Source: Erpobdella octoculata
Lineage: Eukaryota; Annelida; Clitellata; Hirudinida; Erpobdellidae
DNA length: 64,000 nt
NCBI GenBank assembly: GCA_963978895.1
Contig: OZ022240.1
Coordinates: 16,206,717 to 16,270,716, forward strand
Reading direction: 5' to 3'
A program made the position numbers and the translations under genes. Each line of letters begins with the position of its first letter. Position 1 is the stretch's first letter. The notes beneath the pieces are model-generated. The model saw only the letters and a list, made by a program, of their open reading frames with translations. It had not been told where the DNA came from and ran no database searches. Below are positions 1-64,000 of the stretch, piece after piece.

Positions 1-227
1 CAAGGAGTTCACTCGCATTGCTGAAGGGGTAGGCGCCTAAAGAGGCGCTGGTGGCAGAGCGTTAGAGCGTTCGCCTGTCGATCGTTAGGTCGGCAGTTCG
101 AACCTCACCGGCGTCACCAGCGTAACTCCCTTAAGCAAGGAGTTCACTCGCATTGCTAAAAAAGTTCTAACTCCGCCTTGCTTTTGCAAGCCAGTCCCAA
201 GCCTGGAGAAAGGAGGAGGGGAAAGTT
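1..227 (+). repeat. Partial tRNA-like/SINE-like block of the preceding unit
   Basis: This is the end of head B, a whole head C starting at 42, and the tail-like segment, cut by the window start. It shows that the array continues upstream. Module description is given at the block starting at 1692. Confidence 0.8.
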
Positions 228-463
228 AAAAAGATCAAATTAAGATCCACGACAGGAAGTACTTAGGTGTTTCCAACATACAGCCATTTTAGTCTTAAAA
301 CACCTGGTGTAAAGGACTATAAACTATTACAATAAAAATGACGCTTTCTCGCAAAACTTGTCTTGGAAAAGGCGTGTGCTAAATCTCAGTGAAAAAAAAC
401 AATAAAAATTCAAGACTTTCACCTGATTCGATGCTGCGATGTGACACGTTAACTACGTAATTA
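228..463. other. AT-rich spacer between SINE-like block and promoter
   Basis: This non-coding spacer recurs before every promoter at the same offset. It holds an inverted repeat (265-305), an A-run near 390-400 whose length varies by one base between units, and no ORF I would call. Its start (GACAGGAAG near 252-260) may continue the retroelement-like tail. A 727-bp insertion enters this spacer in three units. Confidence 0.6.
265..305. other. 8-bp inverted repeat (stem-loop) in spacer
   Basis: AGGTGTTT at 265-272 is perfectly complementary to AAACACCT at 298-305, with a 25-nt loop. It recurs in every unit, for example at 2192-2232. Role unknown; it may be a fold in a polymerase III transcript or a protein site. 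Confidence 0.5.
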
Positions 464-599
464 GGCTTAAGTGCGGTAGCGAGCTTCATTCCTATTGGCT
501 TAAGTGCGGTAGCGAGCTTCAATCTAATTGGCTGTTGGTCTCGACGACCCGCATTGTCTCGTCTATAAAAGGCCGAACGGACGTACATTGAGTTCATTT
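464..599 (+). promoter_or_regulatory. Pol II core promoter, unit 1
   Basis: Two 33-bp direct repeats (464-496 and 497-529) share GGCTTAAGTGCGGTAGCGAG. ATTGG, the inverted CCAAT box, occurs at 494-498 and 527-531. TATAAAAG lies at 564-571, and TCATTT at 594-599 matches the arthropod initiator TCAKTY with its A at 596, 32 bp from the TATA box. The predicted 5' leader is about 78 nt, ending in AAAACATGG. Unit 1 alone has CCGCATTG where all others have CCGCTTTG (553). In standard units the promoter spans ATG-200 to ATG-65. Confidence 0.75.
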
Positions 600-673
600 C
601 TCCTCAGCCTTCATACGGTTCGGATCATTCTTAGCTGCTCTCTGTATTGACTAGATTAAAAATAATCGAAAAC

Positions 674-1504
674 ATGGCCAGTCACTTAGACGTCGATAAG
701 TTGACAACGATGATGAGATTCATGAACATGGAACCTCGTGATCGTTTCGATGACGATTTTGTAAACAATTTGTGTGTCTTTCTCAAGGAATTTGATTTAG
801 GTAAAGATAATAAATGTTGTTATCCTGAAGACTTTAACGAGGCCTTGTTGGACCTCGAAAAAACTCTACAGGAAACGCCGAACTCAGTTTCGACTGATCC
901 ATTGGAAACGATGAGCATCCAAGCGAAACCTTCGGAAGAAGTCGCTGTTAACGGCGAATATTTCGAAGCTAGTAGCCGAGAAAAACCTAAAGAAAATGAA
1001 AAAACACAATTTGGATTTGTTTCGAGATATAAAATTGATCGAAGAAACAAACAAATGCGTCCGGCTAATTGCCTTGACGATATTGAAACAGTAGGTAGAC
1101 GCTCACTTGGAAAGTATAAAATTGATCGAAGAGTCGATCGGGTTAATCATGCCGTTAGAAATCAGTCACGTAACGTTTACGATTACTCTGGGCTTCGTAG
1201 AGAACGGTTTGGCAAATACGGAAACTCGTGTCAAACGTCTTATGGTCATTGCGGATACGTGGAAATGAATTTTAGACGATACTGTGACACAACTATTGTT
1301 TACCACAACGTTCGTCCAAGTCGCTACTTTGGAAACGTTAAAATCGACCGCAGGCGAACGTCAGTCAAACATGAAGAATCAGCCGCAGACCTTGCCGACA
1401 ACGAATACCGTCGTAGGCTGAACGTCTTACGATCAGACAGAAAAATAGAAATAAACGAGAAGCGTTATGCGATGTTCAATCGACAGCGCGACTTTTCCAA
1501 CTAA
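674..1504 (+). CDS. Unknown 276-aa acidic/Arg-rich protein, copy 1 (reference)
   Basis: I do not recognise this protein and assign no function. Start: ATG at 674 in AAAACATGG context, 103 bp after TATA. An in-frame TTG at 647 would add nine residues but exists only in units with a 10-bp leader insertion, so ATG is preferred. Residues 1-110 are acidic (about 25 D/E) and probably partly helical. Residues 118-276 hold about 29 Arg. KIDRR occurs at 120-124, 149-153 and 223-227, twice as YKIDRR, plus RRR at 226-228 and 246-248. Cysteines are at 34, 48, 49, 133, 186, 193 and 204; C186, C193 and C204 do not form a zinc finger I know. There is no signal peptide, membrane segment or intron. The bipartite charge suggests a nucleic-acid- or chromatin-associated protein (inference only). 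The reading frame stays open for 106 codons past the TAA. Confidence 0.8.
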   Translation: MASHLDVDKLTTMMRFMNMEPRDRFDDDFVNNLCVFLKEFDLGKDNKCCYPEDFNEALLDLEKTLQETPNSVSTDPLETMSIQAKPSEEVAVNGEYFEASSREKPKENEKTQFGFVSRYKIDRRNKQMRPANCLDDIETVGRRSLGKYKIDRRVDRVNHAVRNQSRNVYDYSGLRRERFGKYGNSCQTSYGHCGYVEMNFRRYCDTTIVYHNVRPSRYFGNVKIDRRRTSVKHEESAADLADNEYRRRLNVLRSDRKIEINEKRYAMFNRQRDFSN

Positions 1505-1524
1505 AATCCAATTAAAACTAGTAC

Positions 1525-1538
1525 GACAGAAATCTGTC
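1525..1538. other. 3' hairpin 1 (deleted in short units)
   Basis: GACAGA and TCTGTC form a perfect 6-bp palindrome around AA. A 15-bp segment (1523-1537) covering it is missing downstream of units 13, 16, 18, 20, 22, 24, 25, 30 and 31, which makes the 1,902-bp unit class. The deletion is a multiple of three in an open frame. Confidence 0.7.
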
Positions 1539-1564
1539 CTAATTTTGGAAAAAAAAACAAAACA

Positions 1565-1579
1565 AGAAACGGAGTTTCT
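1565..1579. other. 3' hairpin 2
   Basis: AGAAAC and GTTTCT flank GGA, giving a 6-bp stem with a 3-nt loop. Units 4 and 5 lack the 8 bp corresponding to 1571-1578, removing the loop and one arm. It is not the canonical histone 3' stem-loop. Confidence 0.6.
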
Positions 1580-1602
1580 GTGCTAAAAAACCGTACAAGT
1601 AC

Positions 1603-1608
1603 AATAAA
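1603..1608 (+). promoter_or_regulatory. Polyadenylation signal AATAAA
   Basis: AATAAA lies 99 bp after the stop codon and is followed by a GT- and T-containing stretch. It recurs in every unit with a complete 3' region, 99 bp after the stop (84 bp in the 15-bp-deletion units, 91 bp after units 4 and 5). It supports a polymerase II mRNA ending before the tRNA-like block. It is lost in unit 12. Confidence 0.65.
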
Positions 1609-1691
1609 ATGTGCATCAATTTTTCAAACAAACGGTTTTAAACAAAATGCAATAATTATTCAGCAACAAAGGAACATAATCCAACACAATA

Positions 1692-1830
1692 GAGGCGCTG
1701 GTGGCAGAGCGGTAGAGCGTTCGCCTGTCGATCGTCAGGTCGGCAGTTCGAGCCTCACCGGCGTCACCAGCGTAACTCCCTTAAGCAAGGTGTTCACTCG
1801 CATTGCTAAAGGGGTAAGCGCCTAAAAATT
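1692..1830 (+). ncRNA. tRNA-like head A with pol III boxes
   Basis: A box TGGCAGAGCGG at 1702-1712; B box around 1745-1755 (GTTCGAGCC). CGCTGGTG (1696-1703) pairs perfectly with CACCAGCG (1765-1772), as an acceptor stem would. GCCTG (1723-1727) pairs with CAGGT (1736-1740) around an 8-nt loop. The T-arm to acceptor distance is about 8 nt too long for a real tRNA, so this is tRNA-derived rather than a tRNA. The only in-frame reading of it is the run-on from the upstream ORF. Confidence 0.55.
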
Positions 1831-1833
1831 GTA

Positions 1834-1968
1834 GAGGCGCTGGTGGCAGAGCGGTAGAGCGTTCGTCTGTCGATCGTTAGGCCGGCAGTTCGAACCTCAC
1901 CGGCGTCACCAGCGTAACTCCCTTAAGCAAGGAGTTCACTCGCATTGCTGAAGGGGTAGGCGCCTAAA
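1834..1968 (+). ncRNA. tRNA-like head B with pol III boxes
   Basis: A box at 1844-1854 and B box GTTCGAACC at 1888-1896. The middle arm reads GTCTG/TAGGC; compared with head A it keeps pairing through G-U pairs. A variant with T for G in the arm loop (GATCTTTAGG) is shared by units 6-9. Confidence 0.55.
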
Positions 1969-2090
1969 GAGGCGCTGGTGGCAGAGCGTTAGAGCGTTCG
2001 CCTGTCGATCGTTAGGTCGGCAGTTCGAACCTCACCGGCGTCACCAGCGTAACTCCCTTAAGCAAGGAGTTCACTCGCATTGCTAAAAAA
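1969..2090 (+). ncRNA. tRNA-like head C, degenerate A box
   Basis: Same fold as A and B, with GCCTG/TAGGT in the middle arm and B box GTTCGAACC at 2023-2031. The A box has GCGTT instead of GCGGT, so it may be a weaker polymerase III promoter. Units 3-5 have a further G-to-A change in it. Confidence 0.5.
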
Positions 2091-2390
2091 GTTCTAACTC
2101 CGCCTTGCTTTTGCAAGCCAGTCCCAAGCCTGGAGAAAGGAGGAGGGGAAAGTTAAAAAGATCAAATTAAGATCCACGACAGGAAGTACTTAGGTGTTTC
2201 CAACATACAGCCATTTTAGTCTTAAAACACCTGGTGTAAAGGACTATAAACTATTACAATAAAAATGACGCTTTCTCGCAAAACTTGTCTTGGAAAAGGC
2301 GTGTGCTAAATCTCAGTGAAAAAAAACAATAAAAATTCAAGACTTTCACCTGATTCGATGCTGCGATGTGACACGTTAACTACGTAATTA

Positions 2391-2526
2391 GGCTTAAGTG
2401 CGGTAGCGAGCTTCATTCCTATTGGCTTAAGTGCGGTAGCGAGCTTCAATCTAATTGGCTGTTGGTCTCGACGACCCGCTTTGTCTCGTCTATAAAAGGC
2501 CGAACGGACGTACATTGAGTTCATTT
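2391..2526 (+). promoter_or_regulatory. Pol II promoter, unit 2
   Basis: Elements as in unit 1, with the common CCGCTTTG sequence. A 10-bp leader insertion (GTATTGACTA) lies between this promoter and the ATG in units 1-3 and 24 only. Confidence 0.7.
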
Positions 2527-6008: not shown

Positions 6009-6270
6009 AAAAAGATCAAATTAAGATCCACGACAGGAAGTACTTAGGTGTTTCCAACATACAGCCATTTTAGTCTTAAAACACCTGGTGTAAAGGACTA
6101 TAAACTATTACAATAACAAGTAAATTAAAAACGAATTTTTAAAACCAATGCTCTTATATGTAATTAAAACACAAATTTTGCAATCAATTTTTTCTTATAT
6201 TACTCTTTTATTTTATGTTAAAGTCGAAATATCTTAATTATATCGAAATATCAAAATTAATTAAAATTAT

Positions 6271-6462
6271 CTAAATTAATTGACTTATTGTAAAACTAAT
6301 AATTGAATATTGCATTGTCTTCTATTTTGAGCATGTATGCAAAATTTGAAAAAATCTAACATCAGGAAGTGACTAAAAAATTGATTGCAAGATTTGAAAC
6401 AGACAGAGAAACAAACAGACAGACAGAGAAACAGAGACGACGAGTTAATAAAAGCATTGGTA
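6271..6462. repeat. Internal direct repeat, left copy
   Basis: Matches 6670-6842 at an offset of about 399 bp. It carries a few substitutions and 20 extra bases rich in ACAGACAG. Confidence 0.7.
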
Positions 6463-6608
6463 ATAATAATAAAAATATCAAAAAGCATCGAATTTAAATA
6501 TCTCAACTATTTTCATGAAAATTTCGTACACGCTTGAGAATCGCGGTCAGTGAGTGTGGTTCGTGTTAACTTGGTAAAATAGTCTGCCAGTCGGTTAGCG
6601 TTTTGTGG

Positions 6609-6668
6609 TCAAGAAAACCCTCAAGAAAACCCTCAAGAAACCCCTCGATAAAATCCTCAAGAAAATTA
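6609..6668. repeat. 12-bp minisatellite
   Basis: Five tandem versions of TCAAGAAAACCC; the first two are exact and the fourth and fifth degenerate. It is present in all three insertion copies. Confidence 0.8.
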
Positions 6669-6669
6669 A

Positions 6670-6842
6670 CTAAATTAATTGACTTATTGTAAAACTAAAA
6701 ATTGAATATTGCATTGTCTTCTATCTTGAGCATGTATGCAAAATTTGAAAAAAATCTATCATCAGGAAGTGACTCAAAAATTGATTGCAAGATTTGAAAC
6801 AGACAGAGAAACAGAGCCGACGAGTTAATAAAAGCATTGGTA
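6670..6842. repeat. Internal direct repeat, right copy
   Basis: Right partner of 6271-6462. It ends exactly at the junction with the standard spacer. Confidence 0.7.
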
Positions 6843-14360: not shown

Positions 14361-15624
14361 ATGGCCAGTCACTTAAACGTCGATAAGTTGACAACGATGA
14401 TGAGATTCATGAACATGGAACCTCGTGATCGTTTCGATGACGATTTTGTAAACAATTTGTGTGTCTTTCTCAAGGAATTTGATTTAGGTTAAGATAATAA
14501 ATGTTGTTATCCTGAAGACTTTAACGAGGCCTTGTTGGACCTCGAAAAAACTCTACAGGAAACGCCGAACTCAGTTTCGACTGATCCATTGGAAACGATG
14601 AGCATCCAAGCGAAACCTTCGGAAGAAGTCGCTGTTAACGGCGAATATTTCGAAGCTAGTAGCCGAGAAAAACCTAAAGAAAATGAAAAAACACAATTTG
14701 GATTTGTTTCGAGATATAAAATTGATCGAAGAAACAAACAAATGCGTCCGGCTAATTGCCTTGACGATATTGAAACAGTAGGTAGACGCTCACTTGGAAA
14801 GTATAAAATTGATCGAAGAGTCGATCGGGTTAATCATGCCGTTAGAAATCAGTCACGTAACGTTTACGATTACTCTGGGCTTCGTAGAGAACGGTTTGGC
14901 AAATACGGAAACTCGTGTCAAACGTCTTATGGTCATTGCGGATACGTGGAAATGAATTTTAGACGATACTGTGACACAACTATTGTTTACCACAACGTTC
15001 GTCCAAGTCGCTACTTTGGAAACGTTAAAATCGACCGCAGGCGAACGTCAGTCAAACATGAAGAATCAGCCGCAGACCTTGCCGACAACGAATACCGTCG
15101 TAGGCTGAACGTCTTACGATCAGACAGAATTTGGATTTGTTTCGAGATATAAAATTGATCGAAGAAACAAACAAATGCGTCCGGCTAATTGCCTTGACGA
15201 TATTGAAACAGTAGGTAGACGCTCACTTGGAAAGTATAAAATTGATCGAAGAGTCGATCGGGTTAATCATGCCGTTAGAAATCAGTCACGTAACGTTTAC
15301 GATTACTCTGGGCTTCGTAGAGAACGGTTTGGCAAATACGGAAACTCGTGTCAAACGTCTTATGGTCATTGCGGATACGTGGAAATGAATTTTAGACGAT
15401 ACTGTGACACAACTATTGTTTACCACAACGTTCGTCCAAGTCGCTACTTTGGAAACGTTAAAATCGACCGCAGGCGAACGTCAGTCAAACATGAAGAATC
15501 AGCCGCAGACCTTGCCGACAACGAATACCGTCGTAGGCTGAACGTCTTACGATCAGACAGAAAAATAGAAATAAACGAGAAGCGTTATGCGATGTTCAAT
15601 CGACAGCGCGACTTTTCCAACTAA
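14361..15624 (+). pseudogene. Array gene copy 7, broken by nonsense codon and duplication
   Basis: It has D6N, then codon 44 changes from AAA to TAA (14490-14492), leaving 43 residues. Independently, a 433-bp internal duplication (not a multiple of three) shifts the frame after residue 256. Downstream open stretches (about 14532-15152 and 15175-15624) have no good start of their own. Probably no functional product. Confidence 0.85.
14695..15560 (+). repeat. 433-bp tandem duplication within the ORF, unit 7
   Basis: Copies are 14695-15127 and 15128-15560. The junction joins CAGACAG to AATTTGG at shared single bases, which suggests end-joining or slippage. It covers residues of roughly 112-256, including all three KIDRR motifs. 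Confidence 0.9.
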
Positions 15625-38415: not shown

Positions 38416-38551
38416 GGCTTAAGTGCGGTAGCGAGCTTCATTCCTATTGGCTTAAGTGCGGTAGCGAGCTTCAATCTAATTGGCTGTTGGTCTCGACGAC
38501 CCGCTTTGTCTCGTCTATAAAAGGCCGAACGGACGTACATTGAGTTCATTT
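38416..38551 (+). promoter_or_regulatory. Pol II promoter, unit 19
   Basis: Standard elements and spacing. Confidence 0.7.
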
Positions 38552-38615
38552 CTCCTCAGCCTTCATACGGTTCGGATCATTCTTAGCTGCTCTCTGATTA
38601 AAAATAATCGAAAAC

Positions 38616-39446
38616 ATGGCCAGTCACTTAGACGTCGATAAGTTGACAACGATGATGAGATTCATGAACATGGAACCTCGTGATCGTTTCGATGACGATT
38701 TTGTAAACAATTTGTGTGTCTTTCTCAAGGAATTTGATTTAGGTAAAGATAATAAATGTTGTTATCCTGAAGACTTTAACGAGGCCTTGTTGGACCTCGA
38801 AAAAACTCTACAGGAAACGCCGAACTCAGTTTCGACTGATCCATTGGAAACGATGAGCATCCAAGCGAAACCTTCGGAAGAAGTCGCTGTTAACGGCGAA
38901 TATTTCGAAGCTAGTAGCCGAGAAAAACCTAAAGAAAATGAAAAAACACAATTTGGATTTGTTTCGAGATATAAAATTGATCGAAGAAACAAACAAATGC
39001 GTCCGGCTAATTGCCTTGACGATATTGAAACAGTAGGTAGACGCTCACTTGGAAAGTATAAAATTGATCGAAGAGTCGATCGGGTTAATCATGCCGTTAG
39101 AAATCAGTCACGTAACGTTTACGATTACTCTGGGCTTCGTAGAGAACGGTTTGGCAAATACGGAAACTCGTGTCAAACGTCTTATGGTCATTGCGGATAC
39201 GTGGAAATGAATTTTAGACGATACTGTGACACAACTATTGTTTACCACAACGTTCGTCCAAGTCGCTACTTTGGAAACGTTAAAATCGACCGCAGGCGAA
39301 CGTCAGTCAAACATGAAGAATCAGCCGCAGACCTTGCCGACAACGAATACCGTCGTAGGCTGAACGTCTTACGATCAGACAGAAAAATAGAAATAAACGA
39401 GAAGCGTTATGCGATGTTCAATCGACAGCGCGACTTTTCCAACTAA
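38616..39446 (+). CDS. 276-aa array protein, copy 19
   Basis: Reference protein; full 3' region. Confidence 0.8.
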   Translation: MASHLDVDKLTTMMRFMNMEPRDRFDDDFVNNLCVFLKEFDLGKDNKCCYPEDFNEALLDLEKTLQETPNSVSTDPLETMSIQAKPSEEVAVNGEYFEASSREKPKENEKTQFGFVSRYKIDRRNKQMRPANCLDDIETVGRRSLGKYKIDRRVDRVNHAVRNQSRNVYDYSGLRRERFGKYGNSCQTSYGHCGYVEMNFRRYCDTTIVYHNVRPSRYFGNVKIDRRRTSVKHEESAADLADNEYRRRLNVLRSDRKIEINEKRYAMFNRQRDFSN

Positions 39447-39633
39447 AATCCAATTAAAACTAGTACGACAGAAATCTGTCCTAATTTTGGAAAAAAAAAC
39501 AAAACAAGAAACGGAGTTTCTGTGCTAAAAAACCGTACAAGTACAATAAAATGTGCATCAATTTTTCAAACAAACGGTTTTAAACAAAATGCAATAATTA
39601 TTCAGCAACAAAGGAACATAATCCAACACAATA

Positions 39634-40096
39634 GAGGCGCTGGTGGCAGAGCGGTAGAGCGTTCGCCTGTCGATCGTCAGGTCGGCAGTTCGAGCCTCAC
39701 CGGCGTCACCAGCGTAACTCCCTTAAGCAAGGTGTTCACTCGCATTGCTAAAGGGGTAAGCGCCTAAAAATTGTAGAGGCGCTGGTGGCAGAGCGGTAGA
39801 GCGTTCGTCTGTCGATCGTTAGGCCGGCAGTTCGAACCTCACCGGCGTCACCAGCGTAACTCCCTTAAGCAAGGAGTTCACTCGCATTGCTGAAGGGGTA
39901 GGCGCCTAAAGAGGCGCTGGTGGCAGAGCGTTAGAGCGTTCGCCTGTCGATCGTTAGGTCGGCAGTTCGAACCTCACCGGCGTCACCAGCGTAACTCCCT
40001 TAAGCAAGGAGTTCACTCGCATTGCTAAAAAAGTTCTAACTCCGCCTTGCTTTTGCAAGCCAGTCCCAAGCCTGGAGAAAGGAGGAGGGGAAAGTT
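39634..40096 (+). repeat. tRNA-like/SINE-like block, unit 19
   Basis: No variant noted. Confidence 0.6.
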
Positions 40097-40332
40097 AAAA
40101 AGATCAAATTAAGATCCACGACAGGAAGTACTTAGGTGTTTCCAACATACAGCCATTTTAGTCTTAAAACACCTGGTGTAAAGGACTATAAACTATTACA
40201 ATAAAAATGACGCTTTCTCGCAAAACTTGTCTTGGAAAAGGCGTGTGCTAAATCTCAGTGAAAAAAAACAATAAAAATTCAAGACTTTCACCTGATTCGA
40301 TGCTGCGATGTGACACGTTAACTACGTAATTA

Positions 40333-40468
40333 GGCTTAAGTGCGGTAGCGAGCTTCATTCCTATTGGCTTAAGTGCGGTAGCGAGCTTCAATCTAATTGG
40401 CTGTTGGTCTCGACGACCCGCTTTGTCTCGTCTATAAAAGGCCGAACGGACGTACATTGAGTTCATTT
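40333..40468 (+). promoter_or_regulatory. Pol II promoter, unit 20
   Basis: Standard elements and spacing. Confidence 0.7.
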
Positions 40469-40532
40469 CTCCTCAGCCTTCATACGGTTCGGATCATTCT
40501 TAGCTGCTCTCTGATTAAAAATAATCGAAAAC

Positions 40533-41363
40533 ATGGCCAGTCACTTAGACGTCGATAAGTTGACAACGATGATGAGATTCATGAACATGGAACCTCGTGA
40601 TCGTTTCGATGACGATTTTGTAAACAATTTGTGTGTCTTTCTCAAGGAATTTGATTTAGGTAAAGATAATAAATGTTGTTATCCTGAAGACTTTAACGAG
40701 GCCTTGTTGGACCTCGAAAAAACTCTACAGGAAACGCCGAACTCAGTTTCGACTGATCCATTGGAAACGATGAGCATCCAAGCGAAACCTTCGGAAGAAG
40801 TCGCTGTTAACGGCGAATATTTCGAAGCTAGTAGCCGAGAAAAACCTAAAGAAAATGAAAAAACACAATTTGGATTTGTTTCGAGATATAAAATTGATCG
40901 AAGAAACAAACAAATGCGTCCGGCTAATTGCCTTGACGATATTGAAACAGTAGGTAGACGCTCACTTGGAAAGTATAAAATTGATCGAAGAGTCGATCGG
41001 GTTAATCATGCCGTTAGAAATCAGTCACGTAACGTTTACGATTACTCTGGGCTTCGTAGAGAACGGTTTGGCAAATACGGAAACTCGTGTCAAACGTCTT
41101 ATGGTCATTGCGGATACGTGGAAATGAATTTTAGACGATACTGTGACACAACTATTGTTTACCACAACGTTCGTCCAAGTCGCTACTTTGGAAACGTTAA
41201 AATCGACCGCAGGCGAACGTCAGTCAAACATGAAGAATCAGCCGCAGACCTTGCCGACAACGAATACCGTCGTAGGCTGAACGTCTTACGATCAGACAGA
41301 AAAATAGAAATAAACGAGAAGCGTTATGCGATGTTCAATCGACAGCGCGACTTTTCCAACTAA
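40533..41363 (+). CDS. 276-aa array protein, copy 20
   Basis: Reference protein; 15-bp 3' deletion. Counterpart of copy 16. Confidence 0.8.
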   Translation: MASHLDVDKLTTMMRFMNMEPRDRFDDDFVNNLCVFLKEFDLGKDNKCCYPEDFNEALLDLEKTLQETPNSVSTDPLETMSIQAKPSEEVAVNGEYFEASSREKPKENEKTQFGFVSRYKIDRRNKQMRPANCLDDIETVGRRSLGKYKIDRRVDRVNHAVRNQSRNVYDYSGLRRERFGKYGNSCQTSYGHCGYVEMNFRRYCDTTIVYHNVRPSRYFGNVKIDRRRTSVKHEESAADLADNEYRRRLNVLRSDRKIEINEKRYAMFNRQRDFSN

Positions 41364-41535
41364 AATCCAATTAAAACTAGTCCTAATTTTGGAAAAAAAA
41401 ACAAAACAAGAAACGGAGTTTCTGTGCTAAAAAACCGTACAAGTACAATAAAATGTGCATCAATTTTTCAAACAAACGGTTTTAAACAAAATGCAATAAT
41501 TATTCAGCAACAAAGGAACATAATCCAACACAATA

Positions 41536-41998
41536 GAGGCGCTGGTGGCAGAGCGGTAGAGCGTTCGCCTGTCGATCGTCAGGTCGGCAGTTCGAGCCTC
41601 ACCGGCGTCACCAGCGTAACTCCCTTAAGCAAGGTGTTCACTCGCATTGCTAAAGGGGTAAGCGCCTAAAAATTGTATAGGCGCTGGTGGCAGAGCGGTA
41701 GAGCGTTCGTCTGTCGATCGTTAGGCCGGCAGTTCGAACCTCACCGGCGTCACCAGCGTAACTCCCTTAAGCAAGGAGTTCACTCGCATTGCTGAAGGGG
41801 TAGGCGCCTAAAGAGGCGCTGGTGGCAGAGCGTTAGAGCGTTCGCCTGTCGATCGTTAGGTCGGCAGTTCGAACCTCACCGGCGTCACCAGCGTAACTCC
41901 CTTAAGCAAGGAGTTCACTCGCATTGCTAAAAAAGTTCTAACTCCGCCTTGCTTTTGCAAGCCAGTCCCAAGCCTGGAGAAAGGAGGAGGGGAAAGTT
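41536..41998 (+). repeat. tRNA-like/SINE-like block, unit 20
   Basis: GTATAG before head B (41678). Confidence 0.6.
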
Positions 41999-42234
41999 AA
42001 AAAGATCAAATTAAGATCCACGACAGGAAGTACTTAGGTGTTTCCAACATACAGCCATTTTAGTCTTAAAACACCTGGTGTAAAGGACTATAAACTATTA
42101 CAATAAAAATGACGCTTTCTCGCAAAACTTGTCTTGGAAAAGGCGTGTGCTAAATCTCAGTGAAAAAAAACAATAAAAATTCAAGACTTTCACCTGATTC
42201 GATGCTGCGATGTGACACGTTAACTACGTAATTA

Positions 42235-42370
42235 GGCTTAAGTGCGGTAGCGAGCTTCATTCCTATTGGCTTAAGTGCGGTAGCGAGCTTCAATCTAATT
42301 GGCTGTTGGTCTCGACGACCCGCTTTGTCTCGTCTATAAAAGGCCGAACGGACGTACATTGAGTTCATTT
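42235..42370 (+). promoter_or_regulatory. Pol II promoter, unit 21
   Basis: Standard elements and spacing. Confidence 0.7.
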
Positions 42371-42434
42371 CTCCTCAGCCTTCATACGGTTCGGATCATT
42401 CTTAGCTGCTCTCTGATTAAAAATAATCGAAAAC

Positions 42435-43265
42435 ATGGCCAGTCACTTAGACGTCGATAAGTTGACAACGATGATGAGATTCATGAACATGGAACCTCGT
42501 GATCGTTTCGATGACGATTTTGTAAACAATTTGTGTGTCTTTCTCAAGGAATTTGATTTAGGTAAAGATAATAAATGTTGTTATCCTGAAGACTTTAACG
42601 AGGCCTTGTTGGACCTCGAAAAAACTCTACAGGAAACGCCGAACTCAGTTTCGACTAATCCATTGGAAACGATGAGCATCCAAGCGAAACCTTCGGAAGA
42701 AGTCGCTGTTAACGGCGAATATTTCGAAGCTAGTAGCCGAGAAAAACCTAAAGAAAATGAAAAAACACAATTTGGATTTGTTTCGAGATATAAAATTGAT
42801 CGAAGAAACAAACAAATGCGTCCGGCTAATTGCCTTGACGATATTGAAACAGTAGGTAGACGCTCACTTGGAAAGTATAAAATTGATCGAAGAGTCGATC
42901 GGGTTAATCATGCCGTTAGAAATCAGTCACGTAACGTTTACGATTACTCTGGGCTTCGTAGAGAACGGTTTGGCAAATACGGAAACTCGTGTCAAACGTC
43001 TTATGGTCATTGCGGATACGTGGAAATGAATTTTAGACGATACTGTGACACAACTATTGTTTACCACAACGTTCGTCCAAGTCGCTACTTTGGAAACGTT
43101 AAAATCGACCGCAGGCGAACGTCAGTCAAACATGAAGAATCAGCCGCAGACCTTGCCGACAACGAATACCGTCGTAGGCTGAACGTCTTACGATCAGACA
43201 GAAAAATAGAAATAAACGAGAAGCGTTATGCGATGTTCAATCGACAGCGCGACTTTTCCAACTAA
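42435..43265 (+). CDS. 276-aa array protein, copy 21
   Basis: Full length with D75N. Counterpart of copy 17. Confidence 0.79.
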   Translation: MASHLDVDKLTTMMRFMNMEPRDRFDDDFVNNLCVFLKEFDLGKDNKCCYPEDFNEALLDLEKTLQETPNSVSTNPLETMSIQAKPSEEVAVNGEYFEASSREKPKENEKTQFGFVSRYKIDRRNKQMRPANCLDDIETVGRRSLGKYKIDRRVDRVNHAVRNQSRNVYDYSGLRRERFGKYGNSCQTSYGHCGYVEMNFRRYCDTTIVYHNVRPSRYFGNVKIDRRRTSVKHEESAADLADNEYRRRLNVLRSDRKIEINEKRYAMFNRQRDFSN

Positions 43266-43452
43266 AATCCAATTAAAACTAGTACGACAGAAATCTGTCC
43301 TAATTTTGGAAAAAAAAACAAAACAAGAAACGGAGTTTCTGTGCTAAAAAACCGTACAAGTACAATAAAATGTGCATCAATTTTTCAAACAAACGGTTTT
43401 AAACAAAATGCAATAATTATTCAGCAACAAAGGAACATAATCCAACACAATA

Positions 43453-43915
43453 GAGGCGCTGGTGGCAGAGCGGTAGAGCGTTCGCCTGTCGATCGTCAGG
43501 TCGGCAGTTCGAGCCTCACCGGCGTCACCAGCGTAACTCCCTTAAGCAAGGTGTTCACTCGCATTGCTAAAGGGGTAAGCGCCTAAAAATTGTAGAGGCG
43601 CTGGTGGCAGAGCGGTAGAGCGTTCGTCTGTCGATCGTTAGGCCGGCAGTTCGAACCTCACCGGCGTCACCAGCGTAACTCCCTTAAGCAAGGAGTTCAC
43701 TCGCATTTCTGAAGGGGTAGGCGCCTAAAGAGGCGCTGGTGGCAGAGCGTTAGAGCGTTCGCCTGTCGATCGTTAGGTCGGCAGTTCGAACCTCACCGGC
43801 GTCACCAGCGTAACTCCCTTAAGCAAGGAGTTCACTCGCATTGCTAAAAAAGTTCTAACTCCGCCTTGCTTTTGCAAGCCAGTCCCAAGCCTGGAGAAAG
43901 GAGGAGGGGAAAGTT
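43453..43915 (+). repeat. tRNA-like/SINE-like block, unit 21
   Basis: CGCATTTCTG (43708). Confidence 0.6.
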
Positions 43916-44151
43916 AAAAAGATCAAATTAAGATCCACGACAGGAAGTACTTAGGTGTTTCCAACATACAGCCATTTTAGTCTTAAAACACCTGGTGTAA
44001 AGGACTATAAACTATTACAATAAAAATGACGCTTTCTCGCAAAACTTGTCTTGGAAAAGGCGTGTGCTAAATCTCAGTGAAAAAAAACAATAAAAATTCA
44101 AGACTTTCACCTGATTCGATGCTGCGATGTGACACGTTAACTACGTAATTA

Positions 44152-44287
44152 GGCTTAAGTGCGGTAGCGAGCTTCATTCCTATTGGCTTAAGTGCGGTAG
44201 CGAGCTTCAATCTAATTGGCTGTTGGTCTCGACGACCCGCTTTGTCTCGTCTATAAAAGGCCGAACGGACGTACATTGAGTTCATTT
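44152..44287 (+). promoter_or_regulatory. Pol II promoter, unit 22
   Basis: Standard elements and spacing. Confidence 0.7.
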
Positions 44288-44351
44288 CTCCTCAGCCTTC
44301 ATACGGTTCGGATCATTCTTAGCTGCTCTCTGATTAAAAATAATCGAAAAC

Positions 44352-45182
44352 ATGGCCAGTCACTTAGACGTCGATAAGTTGACAACGATGATGAGATTCA
44401 TGAACATGGAACCTCGTGATCGTTTCGATGACGATTTTGTAAACAATTTGTGTGTCTTTCTCAAGGAATTTGATTTAGGTAAAGATAATAAATGTTGTTA
44501 TCCTGAAGACTTTAACGAGGCCTTGTTGGACCTCGAAAAAACTCTACAGGAAACGCCGAACTCAGTTTCGACTGATCCATTGGAAACGATGAGCATCCAA
44601 GCGAAACCTTCGGAAGAAGTCGCTGTTAACGGCGAATATTTCGAAGCTAGTAGCCGAGAAAAACCTAAAGAAAATGAAAAAACACAATTTGGATTTGTTT
44701 CGAGATATAAAATTGATCGAAGAAACAAACAAATGCGTCCGGCTAATTGCCTTGACGATATTGAAACAGTAGGTAGACGCTCACTTGGAAAGTATAAAAT
44801 TGATCGAAGAGTCGATCGGGTTAATCATGCCGTTAGAAATCAGTCACGTAACGTTTACGATTACTCTGGGCTTCGTAGAGAACGGTTTGGCAAATACGGA
44901 AACTCGTGTCAAACGTCTTATGGTCATTGCGGATACGTGGAAATGAATTTTAGACGATACTGTGACACAACTATTGTTTACCACAACGTTCGTCCAAGTC
45001 GCTACTTTGGAAACGTTAAAATCGACCGCAGGCGAACGTCAGTCAAACATGAAGAATCAGCCGCAGACCTTGCCGACAACGAATACCGTCGTAGGCTGAA
45101 CGTCTTACGATCAGACAGAAAAATAGAAATAAACGAGAAGCGTTATGCGATGTTCAATCGACAGCGCGACTTTTCCAACTAA
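44352..45182 (+). CDS. 276-aa array protein, copy 22
   Basis: Reference protein; 15-bp 3' deletion. Counterpart of copy 18. Confidence 0.8.
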   Translation: MASHLDVDKLTTMMRFMNMEPRDRFDDDFVNNLCVFLKEFDLGKDNKCCYPEDFNEALLDLEKTLQETPNSVSTDPLETMSIQAKPSEEVAVNGEYFEASSREKPKENEKTQFGFVSRYKIDRRNKQMRPANCLDDIETVGRRSLGKYKIDRRVDRVNHAVRNQSRNVYDYSGLRRERFGKYGNSCQTSYGHCGYVEMNFRRYCDTTIVYHNVRPSRYFGNVKIDRRRTSVKHEESAADLADNEYRRRLNVLRSDRKIEINEKRYAMFNRQRDFSN

Positions 45183-45354
45183 AATCCAATTAAAACTAGT
45201 CCTAATTTTGGAAAAAAAAACAAAACAAGAAACGGAGTTTCTGTGCTAAAAAACCGTACAAGTACAATAAAATGTGCATCAATTTTTCAAACAAACGGTT
45301 TTAAACAAAATGCAATAATTATTCAGCAACAAAGGAACATAATCCAACACAATA

Positions 45355-45817
45355 GAGGCGCTGGTGGCAGAGCGGTAGAGCGTTCGCCTGTCGATCGTCA
45401 GGTCGGCAGTTCGAGCCTCACCGGCGTCACCAGCGTAACTCCCTTAAGCAAGGTGTTCACTCGCATTGCTAAAGGGGTAAGCGCCTAAAAATTGTAGAGG
45501 CGCTGGTGGCAGAGCGGTAGAGCGTTCGTCTGTCGATCGTTAGGCCGGCAGTTCGAACCTCACCGGCGTCACCAGCGTAACTCCCTTAAGCAAGGAGTTC
45601 ACTCGCATTGCTGAAGGGGTAGGCGCCTAAAGAGGCGCTGGTGGCAGAGCGTTAGAGCGTTCGCCTGTCGATCGTTAGGTCGGCAGTTCGAACCTCACCG
45701 GCGTCACCAGCGTAACTCCCTTAAGCAAGGAGTTCACTCGCATTGCTAAAAAAGTTCTAACTCCGCCTTGCTTTTGCAAGCCAGTCCCAAGCCTGGAGAA
45801 AGGAGGAGGGGAAAGTT
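45355..45817 (+). repeat. tRNA-like/SINE-like block, unit 22
   Basis: No variant noted. Confidence 0.6.
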
Positions 45818-46053
45818 AAAAAGATCAAATTAAGATCCACGACAGGAAGTACTTAGGTGTTTCCAACATACAGCCATTTTAGTCTTAAAACACCTGGTGT
45901 AAAGGACTATAAACTATTACAATAAAAATGACGCTTTCTCGCAAAACTTGTCTTGGAAAAGGCGTGTGCTAAATCTCAGTGAAAAAAAACAATAAAAATT
46001 CAAGACTTTCACCTGATTCGATGCTGCGATGTGACACGTTAACTACGTAATTA

Positions 46054-46189
46054 GGCTTAAGTGCGGTAGCGAGCTTCATTCCTATTGGCTTAAGTGCGGT
46101 AGCGAGCTTCAATCTAATTGGCTGTTGGTCTCGACGACCCGCTTTGTCTCGTCTATAAAAGGCCGAACGGACGTACATTGAGTTCATTT
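46054..46189 (+). promoter_or_regulatory. Pol II promoter, unit 23
   Basis: Standard elements and spacing. Confidence 0.7.
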
Positions 46190-46253
46190 CTCCTCAGCCT
46201 TCATACGGTTCGGATCATTCTTAGCTGCTCTCTGATTAAAAATAATCGAAAAC

Positions 46254-47084
46254 ATGGCCAGTCACTTAGACGTCGATAAGTTGACAACGATGATGAGATT
46301 CATGAACATGGAACCTCGTGATCGTTTCGATGACGATTTTGTAAACAATTTGTGTGTCTTTCTCAAGGAATTTGATTTAGGTAAAGATAATAAATGTTGT
46401 TATCCTGAAGACTTTAACGAGGCCTTGTTGGACCTCGAAAAAACTCTACAGGAAACGCCGAACTCAGTTTCGACTGATCCATTGGAAACGATGAGCATCC
46501 AAGCGAAACCTTCGGAAGAAGTCGCTGTTAACGGCGAATATTTCGAAGCTAGTAGCCGAGAAAAACCTAAAGAAAATGAAAAAACACAATTTGGATTTGT
46601 TTCGAGATATAAAATTGATCGAAGAAACAAACAAATGCGTCCGGCTAATTGCCTTGACGATATTGAAACAGTAGGTAGACGCTCACTTGGAAAGTATAAA
46701 ATTGATCGAAGAGTCGATCGGGTTAATCATGCCGTTAGAAATCAGTCACGTAACGTTTACGATTACTCTGGGCTTCGTAGAGAACGGTTTGGCAAATACG
46801 GAAACTCGTGTCAAACGTCTTATGGTCATTGCGGATACGTGGAAATGAATTTTAGACGATACTGTGACACAACTATTGTTTACCACAACGTTCGTCCAAG
46901 TCGCTACTTTGGAAACGTTAAAATCGACCGCAGGCGAACGTCAGTCAAACATGAAGAATCAGCCGCAGACCTTGCCGACAACGAATACCGTCGTAGGCTG
47001 AACGTCTTACGATCAGACAGAAAAATAGAAATAAACGAGAAGCGTTATGCGATGTTCAATCGACAGCGCGACTTTTCCAACTAA
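46254..47084 (+). CDS. 276-aa array protein, copy 23
   Basis: Reference protein; full 3' region. Counterpart of copy 19. Confidence 0.8.
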   Translation: MASHLDVDKLTTMMRFMNMEPRDRFDDDFVNNLCVFLKEFDLGKDNKCCYPEDFNEALLDLEKTLQETPNSVSTDPLETMSIQAKPSEEVAVNGEYFEASSREKPKENEKTQFGFVSRYKIDRRNKQMRPANCLDDIETVGRRSLGKYKIDRRVDRVNHAVRNQSRNVYDYSGLRRERFGKYGNSCQTSYGHCGYVEMNFRRYCDTTIVYHNVRPSRYFGNVKIDRRRTSVKHEESAADLADNEYRRRLNVLRSDRKIEINEKRYAMFNRQRDFSN

Positions 47085-47271
47085 AATCCAATTAAAACTA
47101 GTACGACAGAAATCTGTCCTAATTTTGGAAAAAAAAACAAAACAAGAAACGGAGTTTCTGTGCTAAAAAACCGTACAAGTACAATAAAATGTGCATCAAT
47201 TTTTCAAACAAACGGTTTTAAACAAAATGCAATAATTATTCAGCAACAAAGGAACATAATCCAACACAATA

Positions 47272-47734
47272 GAGGCGCTGGTGGCAGAGCGGTAGAGCGT
47301 TCGCCTGTCGATCGTCAGGTCGGCAGTTCGAGCCTCACCGGCGTCACCAGCGTAACTCCCTTAAGCAAGGTGTTCACTCGCATTGCTAAAGGGGTAAGCG
47401 CCTAAAAATTGTAGAGGCGCTGGTGGCAGAGCGGTAGAGCGTTCGTCTGTCGATCGTTAGGCCGGCAGTTCGAACCTCACCGGCGTCACCAGCGTAACTC
47501 CCTTAAGCAAGGAGTTCACTCGCATTGCTGAAGGGGTAGGCGCCTAAAGAGGCGCTGGTGGCAGAGCGTTAGAGCGTTCGCCTGTCGATCGTTAGGTCGG
47601 CAGTTCGAACCTCACCGGCGTCACCAGCGTAACTCCCTTAAGCAAGGAGTTCACTCGCATTGCTAAAAAAGTTCTAACTCCGCCTTGCTTTTGCAAGCCA
47701 GTCCCAAGCCTGGAGAAAGGAGGAGGGGAAAGTT
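47272..47734 (+). repeat. tRNA-like/SINE-like block, unit 23
   Basis: No variant noted. Confidence 0.6.
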
Positions 47735-47970
47735 AAAAAGATCAAATTAAGATCCACGACAGGAAGTACTTAGGTGTTTCCAACATACAGCCATTTTAGT
47801 CTTAAAACACCTGGTGTAAAGGACTATAAACTATTACAATAAAAATGACGCTTTCTCGCAAAACTTGTCTTGGAAAAGGCGTGTGCTAAATCTCAGTGAA
47901 AAAAAACAATAAAAATTCAAGACTTTCACCTGATTCGATGCTGCGATGTGACACGTTAACTACGTAATTA

Positions 47971-48106
47971 GGCTTAAGTGCGGTAGCGAGCTTCATTCCT
48001 ATTGGCTTAAGTGCGGTAGCGAGCTTCAATCTAATTGGCTGTTGGTCTCGACGACCCGCTTTGTCTCGTCTATAAAAGGCCGAACGGACGTACATTGAGT
48101 TCATTT
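47971..48106 (+). promoter_or_regulatory. Pol II promoter, unit 24
   Basis: Standard elements, but followed by the 10-bp leader insertion otherwise seen only in units 1-3. Confidence 0.7.
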
Positions 48107-48180
48107 CTCCTCAGCCTTCATACGGTTCGGATCATTCTTAGCTGCTCTCTGTATTGACTAGATTAAAAATAATCGAAAAC

Positions 48181-53902: not shown

Positions 53903-55054
53903 ATGGCCAGTCACTTAGACGTCGATAAGTTGACAACGATGATGAGATTCATGAACATGGAACCTCGTGATCGTTTCGATGACGATTTTGTAAACAATTT
54001 GTGTGTCTTTCTCAAGGAATTTGATTTAGGTAAAGATAATAAATGTTGTTATCCTGAAGACTTTAACGAGGCCTTGTTGGACCTCGAAAAAACTCTACAG
54101 GAAACGCCGTACTCAGTTTCGACTGATCCATTGGAAATGATGAGCATCCAAGCGAAACCTTCGGAAGAAGTCGCTGTTAACGGCGAATATTTTGAAGCTA
54201 GTAGCCGAGAAAAACCTAAAGAAAATAAAAAAACACAATTTGGATTTGTTTCGAGATATAAAATTGATCGAAGAAACAAACAAATGCGTCCGGCTAATTG
54301 CCTTGACGATATTGAAACAGTAGGTAGACGCTCACTTGGAAAGTATAAAATTGATCGAAGAGTCGATCGGGTTAATCATGCCGTTAGAAATCAGTCACGT
54401 AACGTTTACGATTACTCTGGGCTTCGTAGAGAACGGTTTGGCAAATACGGAAACTCGTGTCAAACGTCTTATGGTCATTGCGGATACGTGGAAATGAATT
54501 TTAGACGATACTGTGACACAACTATTGTTTACCACAACGTTCGTCCAAGTCGCTACTTTGGAAACGTTAAAATCGACCGCAGGCGAACGTCAGTCAAACA
54601 TGAAGAATCAGCCGCAGACCTTGCCGACAACGAATACCGTCGTAGGCTGAACGTCTTACGATCAGACAGAAAAATAGAAATAAACGAGAAGCGTTATGCG
54701 ATGTTCAATCGACAGCGCGACTTTTCCAACTACAATCCAATTAAAACTAGTACGACAGAAATCTGTCCTAATTTTGGAAAAAAAAACAAAACAAGAAACG
54801 GAGTTTCTGTGCTAAAAAACCGTACAAGTACAATAAAATGTGCATCAATTTTTCAAACAAACGGTTTTAAACAAAATGCAATAATTATTCAGCAACAAAG
54901 GAACATAATCCAACACAATAGAGGCGCTGGTGGCAGAGCGGTAGAGCGTTCGCCTGTCGATCGTCAGGTCGGCAGTTCGAGCCTCACCGGCGTCACCAGC
55001 GTAACTCCCTTAAGCAAGGTGTTCACTCGCATTGCTAAAGGGGTAAGCGCCTAA
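53903..55054 (+). CDS. Extended array protein, copy 27 (383 aa)
   Basis: The usual TAA after residue 276 is TAC here, so the frame runs 107 residues on, through both 3' hairpins, the AATAAA region and head A of the tRNA-like block. It ends at the TAA after GTAAGCGCC. Other changes: N70Y, T79M, E109K and a silent TTT at F97. The same downstream frame is open behind the stop in nearly all other copies. Either this copy lost its stop or it keeps an older, longer form. If AATAAA at about 54833 is used, the mRNA would end before a stop codon and the transcript could be unstable. Confidence 0.6.
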   Translation: MASHLDVDKLTTMMRFMNMEPRDRFDDDFVNNLCVFLKEFDLGKDNKCCYPEDFNEALLDLEKTLQETPYSVSTDPLEMMSIQAKPSEEVAVNGEYFEASSREKPKENKKTQFGFVSRYKIDRRNKQMRPANCLDDIETVGRRSLGKYKIDRRVDRVNHAVRNQSRNVYDYSGLRRERFGKYGNSCQTSYGHCGYVEMNFRRYCDTTIVYHNVRPSRYFGNVKIDRRRTSVKHEESAADLADNEYRRRLNVLRSDRKIEINEKRYAMFNRQRDFSNYNPIKTSTTEICPNFGKKNKTRNGVSVLKNRTSTIKCASIFQTNGFKQNAIIIQQQRNIIQHNRGAGGRAVERSPVDRQVGSSSLTGVTSVTPLSKVFTRIAKGVSA

Positions 55055-62386: not shown

Positions 62387-62558
62387 AATCCAATTAAAAC
62401 TAGTCCTAATTTTGGAAAAAAAAACAAAACAAGAAACGGAGTTTCTGTGCTAAAAAACCGTACAAGTACAATAAAATGTGCATCAATTCTTCAAACAAAC
62501 GGTTTTAAACAAAATGCAATAATTATTCAGCAACAAAGGAACATAATCCAACACAATA

Positions 62559-63022
62559 GAGGCGCTGGTGGCAGAGCGGTAGAGCGTTCGCCTGTCGATC
62601 GTCAGGTCGGCAGTTCGAGCCTCACCGGCGTCACCAGCGTAACTCCCTTAAGCAAGGTGTTCACTCGCATTGCTAAAGGGGTAAGCGCCTAAAAATTGTA
62701 GAGGCGCTGGTGGCAGAGCGGTAGAGCGTTCGTCTGTCGATCGTTAGGCCGGCAGTTCGAACCTCACCGGCGTCACCAGCGTAACTCCCTTAAGCAAGGA
62801 GTTCACTCGCATTGCTGAAGGGGTAGGCGCCTAAAGAGGCGCTGGTGGCAGAGCGTTAGAGCGTTCGCCTGTCGATCGTTAGGTCGGCAGTTCGAACCTC
62901 ACCGGCGTCACCAGCGTAACACCCTTAAGCAAGGAGTTCACTCGCATTGCTAAAAAAAGTTCTAACTCCGCCTTGCTTTTGCAAGCCAGTCCCAAGCCTG
63001 GAGAAAGGAGGAGGGGAAAGTT
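62559..63022 (+). repeat. tRNA-like/SINE-like block, unit 31
   Basis: Private GTAACACCC after head C (62921) and one extra A in the following A-run. Confidence 0.6.
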
Positions 63023-63258
63023 AAAAAGATCAAATTAAGATCCACGACAGGAAGTACTTAGGTGTTTCCAACATACAGCCATTTTAGTCTTAAAACACCT
63101 GGTGTAAAGGACTATAAACTATTACAATAAAAATGACGCTTTCTCGCAAAACTTGTCTTGGAAAAGGCGTGTGCTAAATCTCAGTGAAAAAAAACAATAA
63201 AAATTCAAGACTTTCACCTGATTCGATGCTGCGATGTGACACGTTAACTACGTAATTA

Positions 63259-63394
63259 GGCTTAAGTGCGGTAGCGAGCTTCATTCCTATTGGCTTAAGT
63301 GCGGTAGCGAGCTTCAATCTAATTGGCTGTTGGTCTCGACGACCCGCTTTGTCTCGTCTATAAAAGGCCGAACGGACGTACATTGAGTTCATTT
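63259..63394 (+). promoter_or_regulatory. Pol II promoter, unit 32
   Basis: Standard elements and spacing. Confidence 0.7.
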
Positions 63395-63458
63395 CTCCTC
63401 AGCCTTCATACGGTTCGGATCATTCTTAGCTGCTCTCTGATTAAAAATAATCGAAAAC

Positions 63459-64000
63459 ATGGCCAGTCACTTAGACGTCGATAAGTTGACAACGATGATG
63501 AGATTCATGAACATGGAACCTCGTGATCGTTTCGATGACGATTTTGTAAACAATTTGTGTGTCTTTCTCAAGGAATTTGATTTAGGTAAAGATAATAAAT
63601 GTTGTTATCCTGAAGACTTTAACGAGGCCTTGTTGGACCTCGAAAAAACTCTACAGGAAACGCCGAACTCAGTTTCGACTGATCCATTGGAAACGATGAG
63701 CATCCAAGCGAAACCTTCGGAAGAAGTCGCTGTTAACGGCGAATATTTCGAAGCTAGTAGCCGAGAAAAACCTAAAGAAAATGAAAAAACACAATTTGGA
63801 TTTGTTTCGAGATATAAAATTGATCGAAGAAACAAACAAATGCGTCCGGCTAATTGCCTTGACGATATTGAAACAGTAGGTAGACGCTCACTTGGAAAGT
63901 ATAAAATTGATCGAAGAGTCGATCGGGTTAATCATGCCGTTAGAAATCAGTCACGTAACGTTTACGATTACTCTGGGCTTCGTAGAGAACGGTTTGGCAA
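63459..64000 (+). CDS. 276-aa array protein, copy 32 (cut by window end)
   Basis: Codons 1-180 are visible, matching the reference protein; the rest lies beyond the window. Confidence 0.78.
   Translation, partial: MASHLDVDKLTTMMRFMNMEPRDRFDDDFVNNLCVFLKEFDLGKDNKCCYPEDFNEALLDLEKTLQETPNSVSTDPLETMSIQAKPSEEVAVNGEYFEASSREKPKENEKTQFGFVSRYKIDRRNKQMRPANCLDDIETVGRRSLGKYKIDRRVDRVNHAVRNQSRNVYDYSGLRRERFG

Follow-up and report, generated by a model that had tools for sequence, protein, structure and literature searches.

A stretch of 64,000 nucleotides from Erpobdella octoculata, analysed here at its full length and referred to as the window, is occupied by copies of one protein gene, which raises the question of whether this gene was amplified for its product or is carried along by a satellite. 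A sequence-only reading had offered both options, dosage amplification or a satellite with a live gene; on balance our results favour the satellite, with the gene's activity being putative, over the dosage option, since substitutions within the array fit neutrality and disabled units have been multiplied. We consider it probable that the locus is a young coding macrosatellite which carries an orphan gene and has been kept uniform by unequal exchange.

The roughly 32 intronless copies which the earlier reading had seen filling the window were recovered as 32 promoters and 32 gene starts, all on the plus strand and covering the whole 64 kb. In a search of the species' own 386-Mb genome, the array extends past both window limits and comprises 119 gene starts on a single strand within 236.6 kb of one 43.5-Mb contig.

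C3:16,183,082-16,420,510, one strand: array genes as a whole (own-genome search)
1..64000, plus strand: head-to-tail part of the array, 31 complete units and one partial unit at each end
562..2488, plus strand: representative unit from TATA to next TATA, corresponding to the consensus unit plus 10 bp

Outside the array, this search returned two gene copies at C3:15.458 and 15.460 Mb, 0.7 Mb off, a 102-bp diverged gene relic on C7, and no further copies. Spacing of the 31 complete window units is mostly 1902–1927 bp (about 1.9 kb per unit), and their mean divergence is 0.0016 substitutions per site. The array shows what marks a macrosatellite: units of kilobase size are repeated head to tail at no more than two loci, most of them contain an ORF and, on the evidence of pattern, exchange has homogenised them.

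Each unit combines the gene with putative signals for its expression, located in unit 1 as follows.

564..570, plus strand: TATA box, enclosed by a 31-bp anchor found 32 times in the window
674..1504, plus strand: intronless 276-codon gene
1603..1608, plus strand: AATAAA polyadenylation-type signal (consensus position 1032)
2421..2458, plus strand: pair of CCAAT boxes in inverted form (ATTGG) within a 33-bp direct repeat that precedes the next TATA

The consensus unit has TATA at position 3, ATTGG at 70 and 37 bp before the following TATA, and AATAAA 99 bp past the stop codon. The earlier claim of a promoter and an AATAAA for every copy holds for TATA/CCAAT and for the consensus AATAAA, but not for the copy with a 434-bp deletion (consensus 607–1040), from which AATAAA is absent. 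The count of 26 full, one extended and five broken frames was reproduced: 25 frames are complete with 276 codons and one is open until cut by the window end, one reaches 383 codons after loss of its stop, and the broken ones have 263 (three), 177 (one) and 43 codons (one). A frame of 276 codons exceeds the longest among 1000 first-order Markov sequences of unit length (maximum 189). Behind 116 promoter matches in the array, 104 frames have 276 codons, two 277 and one 383; 77 of the 104 full frames encode an identical protein, and an adjacent promoter is present at 113 of the 119 gene starts.

The predicted protein (32.8 kDa) has an acidic N-terminal part, a basic C-terminal part and three KIDRR motifs. 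Judged by its sequence, it is an orphan and the kind of gene unrecognised, as the first reading had it: queries with the whole protein and residues 1–110 and 111–276 (E up to 1) gave as only relative P0002, a 99% identical protein of 276 amino acids from a 1089-bp contig, differing at three residues. No match to the protein was present in NCBIfam or PDB, Pfam gave solely a sub-threshold match to Surp (E 0.042) and PHROGs a single one (E 0.15), and neither phage records (protein), plasmid records (unit DNA) nor IMG/VR (protein and DNA patterns) contained a match. The AlphaFold2 model, with two near-identical sequences as input, was uninformative (mean pLDDT 33.5). A histone cluster was rejected, as Pfam, NCBIfam and PDB gave no histone match and Rfam no histone element or stem-loop; rDNA was not matched either, in agreement with the view that the gene is neither.

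Histone genes and rDNA had been named as the familiar arrays of this kind; since coding arrays are a known kind as well, they are not the sole comparisons, and Stellate, RS447, D4Z4 and TAF11-Like are also comparable. According to the excerpted text of the source, Stellate of Drosophila melanogaster is a tandem protein-gene array with copy numbers highly variable between strains (PMC12400953), and our array resembles it in being built from one protein gene and in its homogeneity (mean distance 0.0016 here, median pairwise distance 0.0031 there; PMC12400953). In contrast to Stellate, no suppressor system is known for this array, the protein is unrelated so far as compared, and variants are common to neighbouring units, which the same excerpt reports for the histone cluster and not for euchromatic Stellate (PMC12400953). 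The human macrosatellites RS447, D4Z4 (DUX4) and TAF11-Like, in the part of the review considered, occupy one or two loci with kilobase-sized units that each hold an ORF, the TAF11-Like unit contains pieces of transposable elements, and RS447 has a functional promoter, per the title of a reference cited therein (PMC3018141). Unit size, ORF and the element pieces of TAF11-Like are shared with our array, and its putative promoter parallels that of RS447, whereas the human examples, as described there, belong to named protein families with shown expression and the orphan protein is a predicted one (PMC3018141). The locus adds a fully assembled gene-bearing macrosatellite, in which neutral change, the spread of mutant units and element capture are readable in one contig.

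Variant units of the window give hints of how the array was homogenised.

6114..6840, no strand assigned: 727-bp insert of units 3-5, further copies at about 8750-9476 and 11386-12112; boundaries uncertain to within a few bases
14695..15560, plus strand: 433-bp intragenic duplication of unit 7, giving a C-terminal frameshift
from about 17045, 19394 and 21744, plus strand: 433-bp duplication of units 8-10, with C-terminal frameshift
26179..26180, plus strand: junction of the 434-bp deletion of unit 12, gene end and AATAAA gone
31914..48151, plus strand: 8600-bp sequence present twice without a mismatch (from 31914 and from 39552), units 16-19 equalling units 20-23
53903..55054, plus strand: extended gene copy of 383 codons (TAA to TAC)

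Three units of 2636–2654 bp each carry the insert, four of 2349–2350 bp the duplication (432 bp in one), and one of 1483 bp the deletion. We infer unequal exchange because mutant units adjoin one another in blocks and several units have been exactly duplicated together: the 19 variants shared among the 31 window units, 15-bp deletion included, are clustered (summed span 75; permutations averaged 261, and none of 20,000 gave so low a value), and the 8600-bp repeat holds twice a block of four units that are not all alike. Two variants, the 15-bp deletion in 9 of 31 units and a 10-bp insertion in units 1–3 and 24, are scattered across the window, and some exchange is therefore long-range. A segment of about 1.9 kb, consisting of the intronless gene, its promoter, the poly(A)-type signal and a spacer with captured repeats, is present 119 times head-to-tail at one place, and we propose that sister-chromatid or long-tract exchange drives both its multiplication and its homogenisation. 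The 113 promoter-adjacent copies could yield polyadenylated mRNA for the 32.8-kDa protein; in that case the total amount made would rise with the size of the array, and selection, if there is any, would target how many copies work.

Among individual copies, no selection was detectable and change looks neutral. Nonsynonymous and synonymous substitutions in 106 gapless frames amount to 35:7, with a spectrum-based expectation of 34.1:7.8 (p 0.85); the count covers 106 of the 116 promoter matches, excluding seven with >12 mismatches read ungapped and three without a start within 200 bp. Moreover, frameshifted, promoter-deleted (three) and promoter-interrupted units (three) were themselves multiplied, the latter two types each occurring at three separate places. 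Against strict neutrality, a hint of constraint at the protein level comes from the third KIDRR, in which all four substitutions relative to the first are synonymous (motif kept in 0.0013 of simulations, a single comparison picked after the fact). The density of distinct substitutions is lower, though not significantly so, in the promoter and first 102 bp (8/325 bp) than in the frame (33/831; p 0.29), variant-density tables being restricted to 85 units of 1895–1930 bp.

These observations also bear on a Stellate-like alternative, which we regard as unlikely, namely a dosage-amplified or conflict-driven gene with selected copy number, whose protein would be required in large amounts by a particular tissue or stage, or would act in drive or in suppressing it. 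Here, frames of at least 276 codons are retained by 107 of the 113 promoter-adjacent starts, the promoters have TATA/CCAAT anatomy, and the KIDRR repeats are maintained through synonymous change; the neutral substitution ratio and the multiplied disabled units argue against it, although both are compatible with selection that acts on how many intact copies there are. To the same low degree, we would credit a lineage-specific KIDRR protein at about 120 copies via selection on total output, in which the copies only look neutral; bulk supply of the germline or early embryo, or Stellate-type intragenomic conflict, could be the context of such selection. Should the protein prove to be produced, this would be one more of the few arrays whose copy number determines protein dose or fuels conflict.

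The spacer has captured repeats, namely a tRNA-like trimer and an old twister-headed retroposon. Both the trimer and the type-P1 twister match of all 32 window spacers had been missed by the first reading.

1688..2090, plus strand: tandem trimer of a tRNA-like repeat of about 140 bp, box A/B-like, with weak tRNA and mascRNA matches
2091..2151, plus strand: unit 1 match to the type-P1 twister, cleavage predicted between 2095 and 2096, one conserved loop-2 U changed to G
2096..2265, plus strand: old member of a dispersed family of twister-headed retroposons; identity to 9 of 10 fetched dispersed copies, 84-89%

The window contains 94 tRNA-like modules, with relatives dispersed in the same genome. 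True tRNA genes were rejected (ARAGORN 0; Rfam tRNA 19.4 bits versus a cut-off of 29), and although folding of the modules is strong (z −6.55 for the full 141-nt module), their minimum-energy structures are other than cloverleaves. Modules 1–3 showed no significant similarity to the tRNA-like beginning of a LINE-like sequence (L001), as 56, 384 and 51 of 1000 shuffles, respectively, did equally well.

The twister family is likewise dispersed in the genome (62 scored of 21,630 first-look candidates). The dispersed element is a poly(A)-tailed retroposon with its 5' end at the predicted twister cleavage site, and target duplications of 11–14 bp end 0–3 nt from this site at 6 of 10 fetched loci (shuffle p 0.01 or less; none convincing at the remaining four). 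A younger twister-headed copy in three array promoters is flanked by a perfect 12-bp duplication in comparison with other units. The fixed array twister is probably a passenger, because it is an old copy without one conserved base, the loop-2 U kept in 10/10 fetched dispersed copies. Ribozyme-headed retroposons are known from the HDV-like ribozymes of R2 and other LINEs, and twisters at RTE 5' ends are stated as in preparation in the excerpted review (PMC7761336). The spacer element resembles them in that its 5' end is defined by, or falls at, a self-cleaving ribozyme, predicted in our case (PMC7761336), and differs in being short and poly(A)-tailed and, in the array-fixed copy, in the missing base. 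The young insertion and its matched empty site make the role of self-cleavage in 5'-end definition testable.

Processing of the array by the ribozyme is disfavoured in view of the dispersed copies. A retrozyme-like coding element, in which the twister cuts readthrough RNA and the unit is circularised and reverse-transcribed into tandem copies, is very improbable. All 32 window spacers carry a twister match on the gene strand (63.4 bits each; gathering 67.2), the predicted cut would give unit-length RNA, and the joined 256-kb stretch contains 119 twisters within 4 substitutions (103 identical), in which the base before the cut is always the same; by homology, the cleavage base and most conserved bases are kept. 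However, the loop-2 position is G, 16 of the 119 copies have one further substitution, which in two copies falls within the invariant-looking loop 4, and variant density is not lower than in the frame (5/61 versus 33/831; p 0.17), so that no constraint is seen on the array twister. Exact duplication of the mixed four-unit block points to DNA-level exchange, the ribozyme comes only about 490 bp after AATAAA, and dispersed gene copies are absent save for the two linked ones and the fragment. Retrozymes, as far as the excerpt covers them, occur in plants and animals with a hammerhead in each tandem unit, no protein gene and about 150–300 bp in animals; the counterpart in the array is a putative twister per unit, in a 1.9-kb unit with a 276-codon frame (PMC7761336). 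No twister in a protein-gene array was described in the literature titles and abstract openings searched, which leaves its absence unproven.

Least probable of all is an assembler-expanded array of few real units; exact repeats of up to 8600 bp may in part be assembly errors, but ordered distinct variants (inserts, deletions and substitutions) run along the whole array in a 43.5-Mb contig and the separate database protein P0002 differs at three residues.

Sequence at the 3' edge of the array looks Helitron-like, but a Helitron origin is not claimed, as Pfam returned nothing in three pieces near this edge; a fourth piece, farther from the edge, contains a reverse transcriptase (Pfam). A sequence resembling the 727-bp insert was seen by reading in inverted orientation beyond the array 3' end (L021, about 6220–7070).

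The array is quite likely a young coding macrosatellite built on an orphan gene, of which this assembly contains 119 copies; coding macrosatellites as such are an already known kind of sequence. The sequence-only reading had described a uniform array, and this was borne out by 32 gene starts and 32 promoters in the window, arranged head to tail and all on the + strand. The window occupies C3:16,206,717–16,270,716. Its frame counts also held, with 25 complete frames and one cut at the window's end, one extended and five broken. Most units in the window are 1902–1927 bp long, and the 31 complete units show a mean pairwise difference of 0.0016 substitutions per site. By tblastn on the window and adjoining stretches, the whole array comprises 119 gene starts (C3:16,183,082 to 16,419,683), none of them on the opposite strand, and the alignment spans at least residues 3–274 in 114. 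Behind 116 promoter matches we observed frames of 276 codons (104 cases), 277 codons (two) and 383 codons (one), broken frames of 263 codons (three) and of 177, 119 and 43 codons (one each), and three cases without a start within 200 bp. Six genes have no adjacent promoter, three through deletion and three through a retroposon between TATA and gene. In the rest of the own genome (386 Mb, 94 contigs), the search at E 0.001 gave two extra gene copies (C3:15,458,087 and 15,460,371; one frame change each, D255N), a 102-bp fragment on contig C7, 90% identical to the frame part from about codon 219, and no further matches. At its 5' edge (stretch L020, 9358) the array starts abruptly within the promoter region, adjoining a GTAT microsatellite; at its 3' edge (stretch L021, 1595) it ends within the old retroposon copy, and Pfam recognises nothing in the adjoining sequence.

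The promoter features TATAAAA and two inverted CCAAT boxes within a 33-bp direct repeat. The gene is intronless, with the ATG context AAAACATGG and AATAAA 99 bp 3' of the stop, and its 276-codon frame exceeds the maximum of 189 found in 1000 Markov sequences of unit length. Residues 1–110 of the predicted protein are acidic (pI 4.4) and residues 111–276 basic (pI 10.2). KIDRR occurs at residues 120, 149 and 223; its third copy differs from the first at four positions, all synonymous, and the motif survives in 0.0013 of random four-change sets, a single comparison picked post hoc. Such a synonymous respelling speaks for selection having acted on the protein in the past. Its sole relative in the databases, P0002, is 99% identical with few residue differences and sits on a 1089-bp contig, which might be a transcript, since this is near the expected mRNA length.

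Among the copies, 106 gapless frames contain 42 distinct substitutions, 35 nonsynonymous (two involving a stop codon) and seven synonymous. As 34.1 and 7.8 are expected under the observed mutation spectrum (p 0.85), individual copies are without visible constraint. Densities were taken from the 85 units of regular length:

Distinct substitutions per bp along the unit
Promoter: 0.022
First 102 bp: 0.029
Frame: 0.040
3'UTR: 0.044
tRNA-like trimer: 0.079
Twister: 0.082
Rest of retroposon: 0.035

In these 85 units, neither promoter plus 5' part (p 0.29) nor twister (p 0.17) differed significantly from the frame. Conversion between trimer modules may lie behind the high trimer density.

Shared variants lie mostly in adjacent units, e.g., a 433-bp duplication in units 7–10 and a 727-bp insert in units 3–5, and the summed span of all 19 is 75 against 261 expected (0 of 20,000 permutations as low). 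Moreover, units 16–19 equal units 20–23 exactly, inside a perfect 8600-bp repeat. Such neighbour clustering and exact block repetition are the pattern yielded by unequal exchange or long-tract conversion; a 15-bp deletion and a 10-bp insertion are more dispersed, which argues for exchange over longer range too. According to PMC12400953, nearer Drosophila histone units are more alike, as in this array, whereas proximity is not linked to likeness among euchromatic Stellate units, unlike here. By reading, ACCAATGCT and its complement form inverted stretches within the 727-bp insert (window about 6114–6840), which is probably a mobile element; past the array's 3' edge, a similar sequence occurs in inverted orientation (L021 about 6220–7070).

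Each spacer also carries a ribozyme-like match at the head of an old retroposon copy, in unit 1 as follows:

2091..2151 (+), twister match
2096..2265 (+), old retroposon copy

The type-P1 twister was matched in all 32 window spacers at 63.4 bits (E 5e-12, Rfam), below the curated cut-off of 67.2 bits. The alignment retains loop 1, the 10-nt loop 4 and paired P2, with altered positions of preserved pairing in P2 and P4; it departs in the outer P1 pair and in loop 2, where the conserved U is G. Since twisters cleave at U-A, as stated in PMC6154101, the predicted cut in unit 1 is 2095|2096. Across the array, 103 of 119 copies are identical and 16 have one substitution, two of these in loop 4.

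We initially read the twister as trimming array transcripts; this was displaced by the dispersed copies. The array's fixed twister is probably a passenger, judging from the loop-2 G, the absence of a sign of constraint and its position about 490 bp downstream of AATAAA. However, the base before the predicted cut is unchanged in 119 of 119 copies.

The family is dispersed in the own genome, with at least 62 scored matches among 21,630 first-look candidates; these are a part of the family, separate from the array's own copies, and none exceeds the curated cut-off. No match was found in 14 control genomes. The retroposon is about 170–190 bp long and poly(A)-tailed, with the twister at its head (e.g., L012, L015, L016, L019). 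About 170 bp are common to the unit and nine of ten fetched dispersed copies (84–89% identity), whereas the match of L010 is split into three shorter segments (83.5–86.2%). All ten start with AACTCCGCC, exactly at the predicted cleavage site, and keep the loop-2 U; nine end in an A-rich tail. Six have an 11–14 bp target-site duplication ending 0–3 nt from the cleavage site (shuffle p <=0.01). None was convincing at L010, L013, L017 and L018, the last two being one insertion, since they share flanks. Younger copies between TATA and gene in three units (C3:16,311,277, 16,319,165 and 16,413,521) also start with AACTCCGCC and end in an A run, flanked on both sides by TACATTGAGTTC, which is present once in the consensus unit and is thus a 12-bp target duplication. 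These starts and duplications place the mobile element's 5' end at the twister's predicted cleavage site. This fits what PMC7761336 reports for HDV-like ribozymes in R2 and LINEs, and also its statement, given there as in preparation, on twisters at the 5' ends of RTE.

The tRNA-like trimer consists of three modules of ~140 bp (mean column identity 91%) containing stretches that resemble box A and box B; the modules do not reach the thresholds of Rfam or ARAGORN. Three modules occur in 106 of 115 promoter-to-promoter intervals. All 40 scored matches of the genome search (1528 first-look candidates) lie in the array, and one copy was seen outside it (L013, 93.6%). The trimer is a repeat without assigned class, tripled here.

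Positions 1–6113 of L001, a separate contig that binning had placed in a bacterial MAG (Breoghania), read as eukaryotic; this contig carries a tRNA match, LINE-like coding stretches (by reading) and a twister match adjoining sequence that reads as RTE-like. Three equal-scoring twister matches 925 bp apart near the contig end (C3:24,356, 25,281 and 26,206) are perhaps another twister-carrying tandem repeat.
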